Shown here: one piece after another, positions 22,500-29,430 of the stretch
Layout of the letters: each line of letters begins with the position of its first letter
How positions within the stretch are numbered: the first letter of the stretch is position 1
From: Armatimonas rosea
GTDB lineage: Bacteria; Armatimonadota; Armatimonadia; Armatimonadales; Armatimonadaceae
Length of the DNA: 64,000 nt
Assembly (NCBI RefSeq): GCF_014202505.1
Contig: NZ_JACHGW010000008.1
Coordinates: 62,001 to 126,000 of the forward strand
Direction: 5' to 3'
Notes under the pieces: generated by a model
The model's database searches: none
The model's input: only the letters and a program-made list of their open reading frames with translations
Told to the model about the DNA's origin: nothing
Program-made: the position numbers and the translations under genes

Positions 22500-22507
22500 G
22501 GTAAAAT
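22500..22507 (+). promoter_or_regulatory. Leaderless-type -10 element for the M48 protease gene
   Basis: GG-TAAAAT ends 7 nt before the ATG at 22515. Confidence 0.6.
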
Positions 22508-22514
22508 AGACACG

Positions 22515-23321
22515 ATGAGACGCTCCCCCCAACTGATGATTGCGCTGGTGATTGCTGTTGTCAGCACGATCAGCTACTTCGGCAACCGCACCAACAACGA
22601 GTACACCGGCAAGGTCCAGCACCTGGCAATGACCACCGACCAGGAGATCGCGGTGGGGCTACAGTCGGCACCTGAGATGGAGGCGCAGTACGGCGGGGAG
22701 AGCCGCGACCGAGCGGCGGTGGCGAAGGTCCAGGAGGTGGGCCAGCGGCTCCTCAGCCGGGCGATCAAGCAGACTCCCTACAAGTTCCAGTTCCACCTGC
22801 TCGCCGACCGAAACACGGTCAATGCCTTCGCGCTCCCCGGCGGCCAGGTCTTTATCACCGAGGCGCTCCTGCGAAAGCTCCACACCGAGGGCGAGCTTGC
22901 CGGGGTGCTGGGGCATGAGATGGGCCATGTGGTCGCGCGGCACGGGGCACAGCAGCTTGCCAAGCAGCAGCTCAGCCAGGGCCTGGTCGGGGCGGCGGGC
23001 GTGGCGGCCTACGATCCCAACAACCCCTCACGGAGCGCGGCAACGACGCAGATGGCCGCGCTGGTGGCATCCACGGTCAAGATGAAGTTTGGGCGGGGCG
23101 ATGAGCTAGAGGCCGACGAGCTTGGGGTGCGCTTCCTCCCCGCGGCCGGCTACGATCCCCGCGCGATGATCGGGGTGATGGAGACACTCCAGTCGGTGGG
23201 CGGGGGGCGACAGCCGGAGTTTTTCAGCACGCACCCCAACCCAGAGCACCGGATTGAGAAGATCAAGGCCGCCATCGAGCGCGAGTTCGCTAGCGGTATC
23301 CCCACCGGCCTGGAGCCCTAG
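22515..23321 (+). CDS. M48 family zinc metallopeptidase (BepA/YfgC-like core)
   Basis: This 268-residue protein has an N-terminal membrane anchor or signal (about residues 6-22), so the catalytic domain faces the periplasm. The zinc site HEMGHVVARH and the third ligand region ELEADELGVRF are intact, so an active protease is expected. The layout (GQVFITEALLRKL..EGELAGVLGHE) resembles the periplasmic proteases that police outer-membrane protein assembly, without their C-terminal TPR domain. The ATG at 22515 is selected from the promoter position and the hydrophobic N-terminus. Confidence 0.92.
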   Translation: MRRSPQLMIALVIAVVSTISYFGNRTNNEYTGKVQHLAMTTDQEIAVGLQSAPEMEAQYGGESRDRAAVAKVQEVGQRLLSRAIKQTPYKFQFHLLADRNTVNAFALPGGQVFITEALLRKLHTEGELAGVLGHEMGHVVARHGAQQLAKQQLSQGLVGAAGVAAYDPNNPSRSAATTQMAALVASTVKMKFGRGDELEADELGVRFLPAAGYDPRAMIGVMETLQSVGGGRQPEFFSTHPNPEHRIEKIKAAIEREFASGIPTGLEP

Positions 23322-23324
23322 CGC

Positions 23325-23942
23325 CTAGAGACGGGTCTGAATGGCCCGCTCCAGCTCTTTGGTGTCGATCTGCCCGCTCCAGTGCTGTAGGATCTGGCCG
23401 TCTTTGACCAGCAGCACCGATGGCACGGACTTCACGCCCCACGCCTGCCAGATGGTCTCGCCGTTTAGCAGGATCGGGTAGGTGAACTTGACCCGCGACT
23501 TGGCAAGAAACGGGACCACTTTCTTGGCCCCTTCTTCGTCGAGCGAGACCCCCAGCACGGTCAGACCCCTGGCGCTGTACTTTTCATGGAGCTTCTGCAG
23601 CTCGGGCATGGCTTTGACGCACGGGACGCACCAGGTCGCCCAGAAGTCCACTAAAATCAGCTTGCCCTTCAGGGACTCCAGCGTGACGGTCTCGCCGCTG
23701 GGGGTTTTCAGGGCAAACGGCGGCGCGGGGCGTGGAACCGGCGCGGGGAGGTAGGCCTCGGGGTCTTTGAGGAAGCGCTCTACCTCGCCTTTGTTGCAGA
23801 AGTAGTAGGTCTTGCCCTTGTAGCTCGCCGCCCCTGCAGGCTTCTCTTCCTCGGACTCACCGCTCTGGGAGCAGATAAAGCAGAGGGCCTTGGCGGGAAG
23901 CTTGCCCGTCACCCGTTGCGCTCTCTCTTGAAACCATCTCAT
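23325..23942 (-). CDS. YHS-like domain fused to a TlpA/ResA-type thioredoxin
   Basis: The 205 residues form two parts. Residues about 15-65 hold a CFIC motif and a YHS-like metal-binding segment (YKGKTYYFCNKGEVERFLKDPEAYL in essence: aromatic-rich, ending in Pro-x-x-Tyr). Residues about 75-205 are a redoxin with active site WCVPC and the cis-Pro segment SVPSVLLV. There is no signal peptide, so a cytoplasmic thiol-disulfide role is likely, unlike secreted TlpA. GAGGTG lies shortly upstream of ATG 23942. The 3' end faces the M48 gene end, 3 nt away. Confidence 0.85.
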   Translation of the reverse strand: MRWFQERAQRVTGKLPAKALCFICSQSGESEEEKPAGAASYKGKTYYFCNKGEVERFLKDPEAYLPAPVPRPAPPFALKTPSGETVTLESLKGKLILVDFWATWCVPCVKAMPELQKLHEKYSARGLTVLGVSLDEEGAKKVVPFLAKSRVKFTYPILLNGETIWQAWGVKSVPSVLLVKDGQILQHWSGQIDTKELERAIQTRL

Positions 23943-23950
23943 ACAGCACC

Positions 23951-24628
23951 TCAAAAATTCCTTGCAAAAGCGATCCCAATGCGTCGATTAAACGCCGCTA
24001 TCAGGCTGACACTCTCGCCGCGCTTGCCAAACCACGAGAGGGTCGTGTGGCCGTACTTGCCGTCGCACATCGGCAGGAGCACGAGGTTGTCCCGGAGCGC
24101 GACACTCGCCCCAAAGGGTATCAGCACCTCGCGGCCAAACTCGGAGTACGCCAGCCCGACATACGGCGCAAGTTTTCCCTCACTGCCTCCGAGCTGCTTC
24201 TGCGCCGAGACAAAGTAGCTCATCCCGCGCGGCGTCCCGATCCGGTCGCTGGAGAAGCCCGCCACAACTCCGGGACGGCTCTCGCTCTCCGGCTGGATAA
24301 AGTAGTTCCCCACCGGGTTGAGCTTCGCCTCGGGCGCACTGGCATTGAACTCCACCCCCAGCTGGAAGCGCGGCGAGATGCGCCCGGTCAGGGTCGTGCG
24401 CCAGCGGGGACGCTCCTGCACGGAGTCGACATAGCGCTGCGCGAACTGAAACTTTCCCTCGACACCACTCGCACGGAGCGGCGATCCCTCACCGGGTCAG
24501 CCCGTTCACGGCGGGAGTGTCGCGCGTAGCTTTTCCTTCACCGACTGGCCGCCTGCCTCCTGGGCCCACGCCGGAGCGATGCCGAGCGCGAGAACGCTCA
24601 GCAAGAGGCTAGTTGGTATCCGGTTCAT
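23951..24628 (-). pseudogene. Exported beta-rich (outer-membrane-like) protein gene interrupted by two in-frame TGA codons
   Basis: From ATG 24628 the frame encodes a signal peptide (LLLSVLALGIAPAWA-QEA) and then stops at TGA 24506-24508. Two codons later comes a second TGA, after which the same frame is open to 23951 for about 180 residues. That part is rich in alternating polar/hydrophobic strands (LTGRISPRFQLGVEFN, APYVGLAYSEFGREV) and ends in a Phe-containing C-terminus, as in outer-membrane barrels. Signal peptide and body lie in one frame, so this looks like a recently broken gene. Alternatives are readthrough, or a separate body ORF starting at GTG 24421 that could not be exported. Confidence 0.6.
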
Positions 24629-24635
24629 ATCGGTT

Positions 24636-24643
24636 ATGGTACC
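24636..24643 (-). promoter_or_regulatory. Leaderless-type -10 element for the interrupted exported gene
   Basis: On the minus strand GG-TACCAT ends 7 nt before ATG 24628. An intact promoter in front of a broken frame suggests the interruption is recent. Confidence 0.55.
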
Positions 24644-24674
24644 CTGTGCGTCAAAGAAAAAGGGAAGGCTCACC

Positions 24675-26030
24675 ATGACACCGTACAACCCGATTCGTCC
24701 TCATCTGACGGCCCTGCACGCTCTCGCCGTTCTGCGCTGGGATGCGGGCGAGCAAGCGATAGCACTCCGACTCTGGCAGCAGCTCTGCGCCGTGGTGGAC
24801 TGGTTAGAATCGCTCAAGGATGATCGAAGGTATTGGTATGGACACGACTACGATACCAAGGTGTATCTGGAAGCGCTGACCATGCTAGGGCGGGAGCGTG
24901 AGGCGCGGGCCGCTGTTGCAGAGTACAACCCTAAGTTTCCCAGTCTTTTTGAGAGCTATACCCAGCACATTCAGGTCGCGCTACGCCGCCGTCACCACAT
25001 ACCTGGGCCCGATGCCATGCCTCGTCCACAACGCATGAGCGTCCCTGGGCGAGTGGAAAGTGCCCTCGGTGCGGCAGACTGGGACCGGGCTCTCGCGCTC
25101 CTGGCAGAGGTCTCGCCCCACGCTCTCTATGAGAAACATAGGGCAGCACTTCGTGCCAAGGTTGCGGCGGCGCTGTGGCAAGCGGAGCAGACAGAGCGAG
25201 CGGTCGGGCTTCTGGAGCAAGCCGAGGCCGAGGCGCAGACGATCCTGCCGAGCCAGCGCAATGAGACACTCCACTGTATCGCCGAGGGCTGGGCGGTCTT
25301 TGATCGTGAGCAGGCGCTACGGGTCTACCGCGAAGCTGTCGAAACCCTGCAAACCATCCCAGAGCGCTCTCGTGGAGGCTCCGTGGATCACTTGATTCTC
25401 TCCCTGGAAACAAGCGGCTTCTACGGCGAAACCCCCGAGCTTCTCGACGAAGTCCCCGACTGGAACGAGCGCCCCGCCGCGCACAAAGCGAGCCTGTACC
25501 ATGGGATCAAGTGTGTCCAGCAAGGGCCCACCCCCGAGGCTTTAGAGGACCTCACCGATGCCCTACGCAGTGCCATTGTCGCTCTCCCGAGCGGCCCCTA
25601 CGAGAAAACCGTTCAACAGTCCGTCCGGGCGCTACTCGGCGCGAGCTACCTGCCTTTTGATCTGGCGGACATGAAGCGGCTACGGGAGCACCAGTGGTCG
25701 GAGCCCTTCGTGGAGTACTTCTGCTATCTCTATGAAAGCGACCAGTTGCCTGTAGAGTTCCGCTCTCTCTTGCCCCTGAAGGATGCCGAACAAAGGGCTA
25801 TCTGGCGGAGTATTCCCGAGACGAGTAAGAACCCCGAGCGAGTCGTGAAGTTTCTAAAGACGTTGCGGCCCTGTCTCGAACTTGCCTACACCCTAGCCCG
25901 CTTGGAGCGCTTCGAGGATGCACTGGCGACCGTGGAGCAAGTGATGCCAGAGGACTACTTACGGGAGCATACTCCCACTGCACGAAGTATCATTCGCATA
26001 CAGGCATCGGTAGGAATTACTCTCTTATGA
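24675..26030 (+). CDS. Helical-repeat (TPR-like) protein, tandem paralogue 1
   Basis: This 451-residue soluble protein is nearly all alpha-helical, with TPR-like pairs such as LTALHALAVLRWDAGEQAIA, ALAVAxWQAEQTERAVGLLEQAE and TLARLERFEDALATVEQV. No signal peptide, membrane segment or catalytic motif is visible. It overlaps the next gene by 4 nt, and that gene is clearly its paralogue (same opening HALAVxRWDAGE, WxxAL..I/LxELSPH and ALARLxxFDEA-like motifs). The ATG at 24675 follows GGGAAGG. Function unknown; a protein-interaction role is inferred. Confidence 0.8.
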   Translation: MTPYNPIRPHLTALHALAVLRWDAGEQAIALRLWQQLCAVVDWLESLKDDRRYWYGHDYDTKVYLEALTMLGREREARAAVAEYNPKFPSLFESYTQHIQVALRRRHHIPGPDAMPRPQRMSVPGRVESALGAADWDRALALLAEVSPHALYEKHRAALRAKVAAALWQAEQTERAVGLLEQAEAEAQTILPSQRNETLHCIAEGWAVFDREQALRVYREAVETLQTIPERSRGGSVDHLILSLETSGFYGETPELLDEVPDWNERPAAHKASLYHGIKCVQQGPTPEALEDLTDALRSAIVALPSGPYEKTVQQSVRALLGASYLPFDLADMKRLREHQWSEPFVEYFCYLYESDQLPVEFRSLLPLKDAEQRAIWRSIPETSKNPERVVKFLKTLRPCLELAYTLARLERFEDALATVEQVMPEDYLREHTPTARSIIRIQASVGITLL

Positions 26031-27373
26031 TGAGTCCTCCATCAGAACTAGAGTTACACCTGGAAGCCCTGCACGCGCTTGCGGTCATGCGCTGGGATGC
26101 GGGAGAGCATGAGGCGGCTCGTCGCTTCTGGCGGCAAGGCTGTGCGATCTACGAGAGCCTGAGCTGGGATCAGCAGCTCTGGTCTTCGTTTCCCTATACC
26201 GAGGCTTTGGTGATGCTGGGGCGCGACACGGAGGCGGAGAGACTGGTGAGGGAGAGCCGCCACGAGCGCTGGGAGCGTGCAAAGCTACACCCCGCCTGGC
26301 GACGGCTCGGGCGGCCTTTCGAGGACCCGGAGCGGGTAGCGGGCGACAGCCAGCCCTTGGACTCTGTTGCTCTCCGGGCGCAGATCTTACGGGACGCTGA
26401 GCAAGGGCGCTGGGCGGCGGCGCTCCAAGGAATCACGGAGCTCTCCCCGCACTTGCTCTACAACCACCATCCAGCGGCGGTGCGTGCAAAGGTCGCGGTT
26501 TTGCTGTGGCAGGCCGGTGAGCGGGAGTGGGCACGCTCGCTTTTGGATCAGGCGGAGGACGAAACACGCGCGATCCCGCTGCACTACCGGAGCGATACCC
26601 TCGCCTGTGTCGCGGAGGGCTGGAGTGTGGTGGACCGGGCGCGGGCAAGCACGCTCTACACCGAGGCCACCGAGGCGCTTCTGGCGGTCCCCTTTGGCTA
26701 CCGCTGGAAGCCGCTGGAGAAGCTCATCGGGTCGCTGACAAGCCAGGGCTTTTTTGCGGAGGCCACCACGCTTCTGGAGAGCACAGCGAGCTGGGAGCGG
26801 CAGAAAAACGGGCTGCGTGTCTTTCTCCGCGCGAGCCTGCGCCACGGGGCCGGTGTCCTCAGAGCCGGAGCCAACCCGCTTGCCCAGGAGCGTCTCTGGG
26901 AGACCGTCCGCCAAGCGGCCCCTCTGCTCAACGCGCCCAACGACATGGATACCTACGAAGACAAGGAGCTGATGCAACAAGCGCTGGAGCAGCTCGCGCG
27001 CACCCACACCCCGCTGAGCCCCTATGACTTTCTGCTCTTGAAAGATCTACGCTGGGGCGAGGCGCTCGCGGCATACTGTTGCCTCTCTTTTGAGCAAGGC
27101 AACCTACCTGATGAGCACCTGAAGCTCCTTTGCTACCTGCGTGGGGTGGCCTACGAGATCGCGTGGTATCTCTCCCTAAACTCCCCAAGCCCCGAAACGG
27201 CGGTGCGCTTCCTGAATCTCCTGCCTCCCACCGAGGCCGCTGCCTACGCCCTAGCCCGCTTGGGTTGCTTCGACGAAGCCCAGGGGATTGCCCGTCAGCT
27301 GTCAGACCAAGTACAGGGTGAGCAGGCACTGTCCGTGATTCAAAGACAAGCCGAAGCGGCGGCTACTCGATAA
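26027..27373 (+). CDS. Helical-repeat (TPR-like) protein, tandem paralogue 2
   Basis: This 448-residue paralogue of the preceding gene is collinear along its whole length, with the same motifs at similar spacing (LEALHALAVMRWDAGEHEAA near the N-terminus, AEGWSVVDRARASTLYTEA in the middle, AYALARLGCFDEAQGIARQ at the end). A tandem duplication with strong divergence is inferred. It is translationally coupled (ATGA) to the upstream copy. Its TAA stop lies inside the 20-nt direct repeat that brackets xisHI. Confidence 0.8.
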   Translation: MMSPPSELELHLEALHALAVMRWDAGEHEAARRFWRQGCAIYESLSWDQQLWSSFPYTEALVMLGRDTEAERLVRESRHERWERAKLHPAWRRLGRPFEDPERVAGDSQPLDSVALRAQILRDAEQGRWAAALQGITELSPHLLYNHHPAAVRAKVAVLLWQAGEREWARSLLDQAEDETRAIPLHYRSDTLACVAEGWSVVDRARASTLYTEATEALLAVPFGYRWKPLEKLIGSLTSQGFFAEATTLLESTASWERQKNGLRVFLRASLRHGAGVLRAGANPLAQERLWETVRQAAPLLNAPNDMDTYEDKELMQQALEQLARTHTPLSPYDFLLLKDLRWGEALAAYCCLSFEQGNLPDEHLKLLCYLRGVAYEIAWYLSLNSPSPETAVRFLNLLPPTEAAAYALARLGCFDEAQGIARQLSDQVQGEQALSVIQRQAEAAATR

Positions 27374-27386
27374 CTTTCCGGGCCGC
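27367..27386. repeat. Left copy of the 20-nt direct repeat bracketing xisHI
   Basis: TCGATAACTTTCCGGGCCGC matches 28160-28179 with one mismatch. It contains the stop codon of the helical-repeat gene and, read on the minus strand, would encode the last residues of the cyanophycinase-like protein. Confidence 0.8.
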
Positions 27387-27416
27387 AGGACGGTATGATA
27401 CTCTCACGGAGACGCT

Positions 27417-27836
27417 ATGGCACGAGATGTTTATCATGATCCGATTCGTCATGCGCTAGAGGCGGATGGTTGGATAATTACGGATGATCCCCTGACGCTG
27501 CGTTTTGGTGAGCAGAATGTCTTTGTGGATTTAGGAGCAGAAGCGCCGCTGGGGGCAGAAAAAGGGGGGCGGAAGATTGCTGTTGAAGTCAAGAGCTTTC
27601 TGGGGAAATCTGCCATTACAGAGCTCGAGCGTGCGCTGGGGCAGTTTGCTTTCTATCGGTTTCTTCTGCGGCGGGATCACCCAAACAGACTGCTTTATCT
27701 GGGAGTCTCGGAGGATGTGTATGTAGCACTCTTCGACACTGCGGATGGGCGAGACTTAATGGCAGATGCTCAGGTACGTCTTGTGGTTGTCAACATTGTC
27801 AAGGAGGAGGTTGTCGAATGGATCGAGATCGCCTAG
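27417..27836 (+). CDS. xisH: XisH-family protein (endonuclease-fold excision-controlling factor)
   Basis: This 139-residue protein matches the XisH family: MARDVYHD..RHALEADGWIITDDPLTLR, then VDLGAEA.., GRKIAVEVKSFLGKSAITELERALGQF and YLGVSEDVY. The family has a PD-(D/E)XK-like nuclease fold; D (VDLGAE) and ExK (VEVKSF) are present. XisH is required for excision of the fdxN element in Anabaena, and XisH/XisI pairs occur in many genomes without that element. GGTATGAT and GGAGACGC lie upstream of ATG 27417, so this is a leadered gene. It overlaps xisI by 19 nt. Confidence 0.93.
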   Translation: MARDVYHDPIRHALEADGWIITDDPLTLRFGEQNVFVDLGAEAPLGAEKGGRKIAVEVKSFLGKSAITELERALGQFAFYRFLLRRDHPNRLLYLGVSEDVYVALFDTADGRDLMADAQVRLVVVNIVKEEVVEWIEIA

Positions 27837-28159
27837 CACTATTTCGGAGGACGCTCCATCAGATTTTTGAGAAGTACAGCCAGTTCAAGCTGTCGTATGC
27901 GGATGTGGAGACCGAGCTCGTTCTCGATGATGAGCGAGGACACTATGAGCTCTGGCAGATTGGCTGGCAAGGGCCAAAGCGCATCCATGCCTGTATTTTG
28001 CATGTGGATATTAAAGACAGCAAGATCTGGGTGCAACACGATGGCATCCATGAAGGCATCACTGATGAGCTGCTAGAAGCTGGAATAGAGCCCCAAGAGA
28101 TTGTCCTTGCCTTCCATTCTCCTGCTGCCCGAAAGTACCTCCCCTTTGCGGTTGCCTAG
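27818..28159 (+). CDS. xisI: XisI-family protein
   Basis: This 113-residue partner of XisH has the family pattern: IFEKYSQF, DxETELVLDDERGHYELWQIGWQG, HxDIKDSKIWVQHDGIHEGI and a C-terminal EIVLAFHSPAARKYLPFAVA. It is coupled to xisH by a 19-nt overlap. Its TAG stop is read on the other strand as the TAG stop of the cyanophycinase-like gene (shared CTAG), so the two genes meet tail to tail with no spacer. Confidence 0.93.
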   Translation: MDRDRLALFRRTLHQIFEKYSQFKLSYADVETELVLDDERGHYELWQIGWQGPKRIHACILHVDIKDSKIWVQHDGIHEGITDELLEAGIEPQEIVLAFHSPAARKYLPFAVA

Positions 28160-29430
28160 TCGATAACTTTCCGGGCTGCGAGGTCATACTTTTTGCCGCT
28201 GGCGACCGACTCGGGGCCGGGTTTGCCCGCGTCGTAGAAGTTCACACGGGTGCGGCCGGTGATCTCGGCGACCGAGCCTTGGACAATCAGCGCCGTGGCT
28301 TCGTCGATGCCAACTCCTAACAACTGCGGATAGGTCTTGATAAGGAGCTCCATGTCCTTGAAGCGGTTCCGCTGGGTGAAGTGCTGGTCGATTGCCATGC
28401 CGGGGAGAAAGCCCAGGCCGCGCTCGTAGCCGGGGGCGATAATCTCCTCGGGGCCGAGAGGATTGCCGCGGGCCATGTACTCGCCCTGGATGGAAGCGCC
28501 TGCGCTGCTGCCTCCGATCACGCCGCCGCGCTTGAGGACCTCGTGCATGAGTTTTTCCGCCTTGGTGCCCTCGTAGGCATCGACAAAGCGCCACTGTCGC
28601 CCACCGCCAAACCAGACTCCCGTGGCGCGCTTGAGCAGGGCTAGTGCCTCGGGGCTATCGACGGTCTCGGGGGTGCGCCCGCGGAGCTCGACCACCTCCT
28701 TGGCTCCCGCGCGGCGTAGCGCCTCGGCCATGCCGTCTTTGGGTGGGAGCGGGTCGGGCATGGAGATGGGAATCACCGCGATCACGGCTTTCTCCGGCCC
28801 ACCGGCGAGCTCCACAAAGCGCTGCGTCAGCCCCTGCGGCATCCCGCCCCCACCGATAATCACCAGGGTCCCCGACGGCACCTTCGGCGTGGCGAGTGTC
28901 TTGGGAGGGAAGACGGGCTCGGTGCGCTGGCGGCTCCAGCGGCGCAGAGCGGTGAGGTCGGCGAGGCGCTTGCGACCCGCGAGGGTGACCCGCTCCTCGG
29001 GGCTGAACTTGGTCGCAACGAGGCGAATCGTCACGGGCACGGCCCCGAGAAGCTGTATCTCCCGCCCGACAACCGCCAGCGCCGCGCCCTCGGGGAGCTC
29101 GTAGCGAATCGCAGCATTGGCATCGGGGAGGAGCCCCTCGCGGAGTGCCACTTGCGTAAACGCCGTGTTCCCTCCGAGAGTGGCACCACGGGCCAGCGCG
29201 GCCTTCAGGGCATCGAGGATTTTCCCCTTGGGGGGCTCCTTCAGCTCCCACCAGACCCCCGTGGCCTCGGCGAGCTCGCGAAGGTCAGGGAGCTTGTCTT
29301 TCACCGCGACAAACTTGCCCTCCAGCGGCTTGGCGAGGCGCGTGAAGGTCAGAAATGCCTCCGGGGCGGCGGGGCCGGGGCCAGAGAGGATTAGTGCGCC
29401 AGGGATACCATCGGCGAAGCTTGGGATCAT
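28156..29430 (-). CDS. Cyanophycinase-like S51-family peptidase
   Basis: This 424-residue protein resembles cyanophycinase and related serine peptidases, which cut beta-aspartyl bonds. The nucleophile elbow is GGSSAGASIQG, with GVWFGGGRQWRFVDAY upstream and AIDQHFTQRNRFKDMELL carrying the family His/Arg-Arg motif. An extra N-terminal domain of about 180 residues looks like a degenerate second copy (GALILSGPG, ATLGGNTA). No signal peptide is seen. It overlaps the sulfatase gene by 4 nt, forming an operon. Whether its substrate is cyanophycin or another isopeptide is not resolved. Confidence 0.85.
   Translation of the reverse strand: MIPSFADGIPGALILSGPGPAAPEAFLTFTRLAKPLEGKFVAVKDKLPDLRELAEATGVWWELKEPPKGKILDALKAALARGATLGGNTAFTQVALREGLLPDANAAIRYELPEGAALAVVGREIQLLGAVPVTIRLVATKFSPEERVTLAGRKRLADLTALRRWSRQRTEPVFPPKTLATPKVPSGTLVIIGGGGMPQGLTQRFVELAGGPEKAVIAVIPISMPDPLPPKDGMAEALRRAGAKEVVELRGRTPETVDSPEALALLKRATGVWFGGGRQWRFVDAYEGTKAEKLMHEVLKRGGVIGGSSAGASIQGEYMARGNPLGPEEIIAPGYERGLGFLPGMAIDQHFTQRNRFKDMELLIKTYPQLLGVGIDEATALIVQGSVAEITGRTRVNFYDAGKPGPESVASGKKYDLAARKVID
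28160..28179. repeat. Right copy of the 20-nt direct repeat bracketing xisHI
   Basis: TCGATAACTTTCCGGGCTGC lies 793 nt from the left copy. On the minus strand it encodes the C-terminal AARKVID of the cyanophycinase-like protein. Confidence 0.8.

Follow-up and report, generated by a model that had tools for sequence, protein, structure and literature searches.

We analyzed a 64,000-nt stretch of Armatimonas rosea DNA (assembly GCF_014202505.1, contig NZ_JACHGW010000008.1, positions 62,001-126,000, forward strand; hereafter the window), in which the adjacent genes xisH and xisI lie between two copies of a direct repeat. Probably, a 773-bp unit carrying this pair (27387..28159, + strand) was inserted horizontally with duplication of 20 bp of its target. 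Three observations carry this reading: the repeat itself, a sister-genome sequence that resembles an empty site, and the presence of such repeats at other xisHI loci as well.

A direct repeat immediately outside xisH-xisI

The 20-nt core of the repeat, TCGATAACTTTCCGGGC(C/T)GC, occurs at 27367-27386 and 28160-28179, immediately outside xisH-xisI, and its two copies differ at one base (C/T). The best ungapped repeat is 24 nt long with 22/24 identical positions (left direct repeat, 27363..27386; right direct repeat, 28156..28179; both + strand) and has a spacing of 793. When the whole genome was searched with up to three mismatches allowed, the core matched at these two places only. The repeat that a preliminary description had placed on both sides of xisHI is found exactly there and is unique in the genome. 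In the shuffled window, the chance expectation was a mean of 0.01 matches with at most three mismatches.

The left copy includes the TAA stop of the upstream helical-repeat gene (448 amino acids, 26027..27373, + strand), and the right copy abuts the xisI stop codon. Read on the minus strand, the right copy forms the coding tail (AARKVID*) of a convergent peptidase S51/cyanophycinase-like gene (424 amino acids, 28156..29430, - strand), and the left copy would give AARKVIE*. Both gene ends had been described as lying within the repeats, and this was confirmed. The unit between the copies consists of a short leader with a GGAG ribosome-binding site, xisH, and xisI, and it ends at the xisI stop. 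Its guanine-plus-cytosine (GC) content is 51.7%, compared with 64% and 67% in the neighboring genes. A horizontally acquired unit holding little beyond xisH-xisI would have landed where two convergent genes share their 3' ends, and duplication of 20 bp of the target would have let each neighbor retain an intact end.

That the repeat arose by chance, or is a regulatory or terminator element common to both places with no insertion involved, is scarcely credible. Terminator-like repeats do occur at some of the other xisHI loci surveyed below (L095 and L128). However, the expected count in the window is 0.01, the copies are a neighbor's coding tail matched by the single site of the sister genome, and the comparison with that empty site contradicts this explanation.

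A single copy of the site in the sister genome

The only other genome of the genus compared (G001) has no XisH, its right-hand gene is 90% identical to that of the window, and the upstream synteny block (window 22500-24606) is kept. Its corresponding locus (L041) contains a single copy of the site, GCGACAGCTACTCAATCACTTTCCGGGTGGCGAGGTC. By BLAST, window positions 27355-27382, reaching into the left repeat, aligned with L041 4125-4152, and the homology resumed with the right repeat at 28156, from which the window aligned onwards with L041 from 4133. The two alignments share 20 nt (L041 4133-4152), and no xisHI-like DNA was found between them in this comparison. The 13 nt before the core in G001 match the flank of the left copy at 10/13 positions and that of the right copy at 4/13, while the 60 nt after the core match the flank of the right copy at 49/60 positions and that of the left at 18/60. 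The stop context in G001 is Glu-stop, the same as in the left copy. As judged from these alignments, this is the pattern expected for an unoccupied target. The relative thus lacks xisHI and holds one copy of the 20-mer, not both.

The preliminary interpretation is supported in part. Its proposal that the present neighbors once overlapped tail to tail reaches beyond the alignments: the tail of the right gene is comparable in G001, but the left neighbor differs there, and the former overlap of these two genes may be supposed but is not seen. The more general claim, an insertion with target duplication, is well supported by the empty-site-like sequence of G001 together with the scar at other xisHI pairs.

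The single copy could also be explained by ancestral presence of xisHI followed by its loss from the sister genome through recombination between the repeat copies, one of which remained. Such recombination would yield exactly the single copy of G001, and there is a single relative to polarize the change. On the other hand, the patchy presence of XisH (17/291 genomes of the phylum) and the low GC content of the unit favor gain, and loss leaves the origin of the repeat unexplained, an earlier insertion with duplication still being required. We therefore consider loss very unlikely.

Direct repeats at other xisHI loci

Our survey took in this phylum and further bacteria, chiefly cyanobacteria; 122 linked xisHI pairs were collected, of which 113 were non-redundant and testable. 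With 150-bp flanks, a strong direct repeat was present at 12 loci versus 1/678 cross-locus flank pairings, and at 8/59 xisHI versus 4/472 segments of the same size shifted within the same contigs. A gapped score with a gene-boundary control gave 12/112 xisHI pairs versus 1/377 neighboring genes (p = 1.4e-7). When related units and shared neighborhoods were collapsed, 10/83 clusters carried a repeat (p = 2e-7), and with 400-bp flanks the counts were 17/113 xisHI versus 3.5% of the shifted segments. Hence, it cannot be said that xisHI pairs elsewhere are never flanked by direct repeats.

The repeats are 20-130 nt long and unrelated between loci, except at loci inherited together (L119/L139). Many of them duplicate the end of a gene, which leaves the neighboring gene intact. 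The 3' end is duplicated for the genes of isochorismate synthase (L112), an Eco57I-type methylase (L109), and a family-2 glycosyltransferase (L090), and for sufS (L092), and the 5' end for a methyltransferase gene (L119 and L139). At L130 the duplicated sequence looks, by eye, like the beginning of a pyrC-like gene, and at L076 like an upstream promoter region. At a locus of the same phylum (L059), 59 nt of the ruvA 3' end recur after xisHI with 57 matches, and relatives without xisHI at this locus have a single ruvA tail. One candidate, the repeat at L094, was not accepted as a target duplication because, by eye, it resembles the starts of two related antitoxin-like genes.

These unrelated repeats bear on site-specific integration. 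In that reading, a recombinase supplied in trans would recognize the 20-mer as the core of an attachment (att) site, and a minimal integrative element at the 3' end of a gene would be bounded by the two copies as attL and attR. In its favor, att sites classically lie at gene 3' ends, the serine recombinase XisF of Anabaena is assisted by xisHI (cited in PMC4853749), and the one-base difference between the copies looks as if one of them had arrived with the element. However, the unit has no recombinase, the genome contains no further occurrence of the 20-mer, and the repeats at different xisHI loci are unrelated, with lengths from 20 to 130 nt. In 61 related genomes, the 20-mer gave only scattered matches at unrelated places (at most three mismatches); a reversed control pattern also matched many genomes, and there is therefore no sign of a conserved att site. 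Neither XisF nor borders of its element were found in the unit or in the neighboring genes listed or scanned, the rest of the genome not having been searched for XisF. Site-specific integration is thus given little chance.

The same scar at unrelated gene pairs

An adjacent-pair control yielded three strong repeats, one at a further xisHI pair and two at DUF433/DUF5615 toxin-antitoxin-like pairs. The latter are flanked by direct repeats of 48 nt (L125:2849-3541) and 71 nt (L130:2064-2740). Among all DUF433/DUF5615 loci retrieved, 2/12 pairs had a strong repeat. The presence of the scar at unrelated toxin-antitoxin-like pairs suggests a mechanism that is probably not confined to XisHI. That PIN-like pairs bear it points to a general process of the host, visible mostly where an addiction-type cassette is retained.

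We propose that the event is recurrent: small nuclease or toxin-antitoxin-like pairs would enter chromosomes and duplicate about 20-130 bp of the landing sequence. The incoming unit may be joined to a break at which the two strands are nicked far apart, or template switching during replication may copy the target a second time. Selection would then have retained those insertions that spared both neighbors. Once inserted, the unit might persist because the XisH nuclease is restrained by XisI, by analogy with restriction-modification and toxin-antitoxin modules.

A more specific version of this explanation, compatible with it, is that XisH drives its own spread: the nuclease would make a staggered break or stall a fork, and repair would copy the cassette in with target duplication. 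The PD-(D/E)XK active-site residues are kept, flanking repeats are enriched around xisHI, and nuclease-based restriction-modification systems bear the same scar. Against this, the same scar is borne by DUF433/DUF5615 pairs, which are PIN-like and presumably cut RNA; there is no common target motif; and three of the four local copies have no repeat. We regard this version as unlikely, and it is equally doubtful that xisHI is an autonomous selfish module, in which XisH, held in check by XisI, would break DNA and provoke its own insertion with a long duplication. Were it so, xisHI would join restriction-modification systems in a class of mobile gene pairs that lack a transposase and occur in many phyla. 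The term self-contained mobile cassette, used in the preliminary description, goes beyond the evidence, as the unit has no mobilizing enzyme or conserved ends, 3/4 copies in the genome are free of repeats, and unrelated pairs share the scar.

Several results weigh against insertion with target duplication as the explanation of the window and its counterparts. The empty site is clean on one side only. In place of the helical-repeat genes, G001 has as its left neighbor a gene named by eye as that of a PQQ-type dehydrogenase, whose start is cytochrome-like; this gene has no match in the window's genome, and the helical-repeat gene is absent from all 11 other genomes of the family. Because the left neighbors differ, the comparison is limited to the tail of the right gene and about 13 nt beyond it. 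Of the four XisH genes in the window's genome, three lack a comparable flanking repeat, and about 85-90% of the xisHI pairs surveyed have no flanking repeat. The weaker survey cases include terminator-like repeats (L095 and L128), a common intergenic repeat (L105), and paralogous neighbors (L094), and the survey controls were resident genes. In this phylum, with HepT pairs as an acquired-gene control (wider windows, score of at least 18), repeats were found at 3/24 HepT, 1/24 DUF5615, and 4/22 XisH loci; among the HepT cases, one resembles a tandem gene copy and one an intergenic repeat. Given 3/24 for HepT, the scar may not be confined to nuclease or toxin modules.

Relation to known insertion systems

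Insertion with long target duplication was first described for Helicobacter restriction-modification genes (Nobusato et al. 2000, as cited in PMC1643837), and Furuta et al. 2010 extended the restriction-modification cases, for which long and variable duplications of about 100 bp are given (PMC3874152, PMC3031569). The xisHI cases resemble these insertions in that a small unit of a nuclease and its partner, with no transposase, is flanked by long, variable, target-derived repeats, the neighbors are spared, and a relative has the empty site. They differ in that the xisHI cassette has no methyltransferase, and the 20-nt duplication of the window is shorter than roughly 100 bp. In addition, the restriction-modification insertions were seen between strains of one species, whereas the xisHI cases extend across bacterial phyla. 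xisHI seems to spread through genomes by the same route as restriction-modification genes.

Excision of the large fdxN element of Anabaena by XisF is assisted by XisH and XisI, and Beggiatoa and others have been noted to carry xisHI but no xisF (both as cited or noted in PMC4853749). The pair in the window belongs to the same families as the Anabaena fdxN proteins (PF08814 and PF08869, with solved relatives), but here xisHI is itself the inserted DNA. XisH and XisI are annotated in many bacteria only as fdxN-excision helpers; entry with the scar of restriction-modification systems suggests that the pair may ordinarily act as a nuclease module that preserves itself. Like the type II toxin-antitoxin cassettes DUF433/DUF5615 and HepT/MntA, xisHI consists of two small adjacent genes, is patchy and multicopy, and has many broken copies; unlike them, XisH has a DNA-nuclease fold in place of PIN or HEPN. 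We found no earlier report in the literature linking xisHI to target duplication or to this type of insertion. The finding adds a widespread but poorly understood gene pair to a mode of gene mobility that is itself poorly understood. It suggests that small addiction-type cassettes of several families travel by a general insertion route, as yet unexplained. The scar offers a simple, searchable signature with which such insertions can be dated and mapped.

Genes of the unit and additional observations

xisH (27417..27836, + strand; PF08814, 8e-47) encodes a predicted PD-(D/E)XK nuclease-like protein of 139 amino acids, and xisI (27818..28159, + strand; PF08869, 1.3e-36) encodes 113 amino acids. 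The two genes are adjacent, and the xisI start, behind AAGGAGGAGG, overlaps the xisH end by 19 nt. XisH scored 159.2 bits and XisI 125.8 bits against a Pfam curated cut-off of 25. XisH has been placed in the PD-(D/E)XK superfamily (PMC1189080), and the protein of the window has the active-site residues of this superfamily (D...E-x-K). Its residues D38, E57, K59, and Q76 were invariant in an alignment of 13 sequences. Relatives in the PDB are 2inb and 2okf for XisH, and 3d7q, 2nlv, 2nwv, and 2nvm for XisI.

The 773-bp unit contains no transposase or recombinase, xisH and xisI being its only genes, and no terminal inverted repeats pairing its ends were found. The gene list and Pfam showed no methyltransferase in the unit, which is not a restriction-modification system, and PADLOC gave no match. 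XisH was not found in phages; two viral contigs contained it.

The helical-repeat gene upstream of the unit matched no Pfam family. It is one of two adjacent helical-repeat genes (24579-27373) that are 38% identical to each other and absent from the sister genome. At L130, the repeat of the DUF433/DUF5615 pair ends in TAA just ahead of the pair and resembles the last codons of the upstream gene.

xisH copies are often truncated or frameshifted in the phylum (G007, G016, G017, G036, G046, G081, and G088), and these frequent broken copies suggest rapid gain and loss. Another xisHI of the window's genome (L003:91-1632) adjoins a TnpB-like (IS605-type) gene, named by eye. In two Nostoc loci (L089 and L095), one of Anabaena (L131), and one of Chloroflexi (L128), xisHI lies directly downstream of ahcY (adenosylhomocysteinase), and the 3' side of this gene is possibly a favored site of xisHI.

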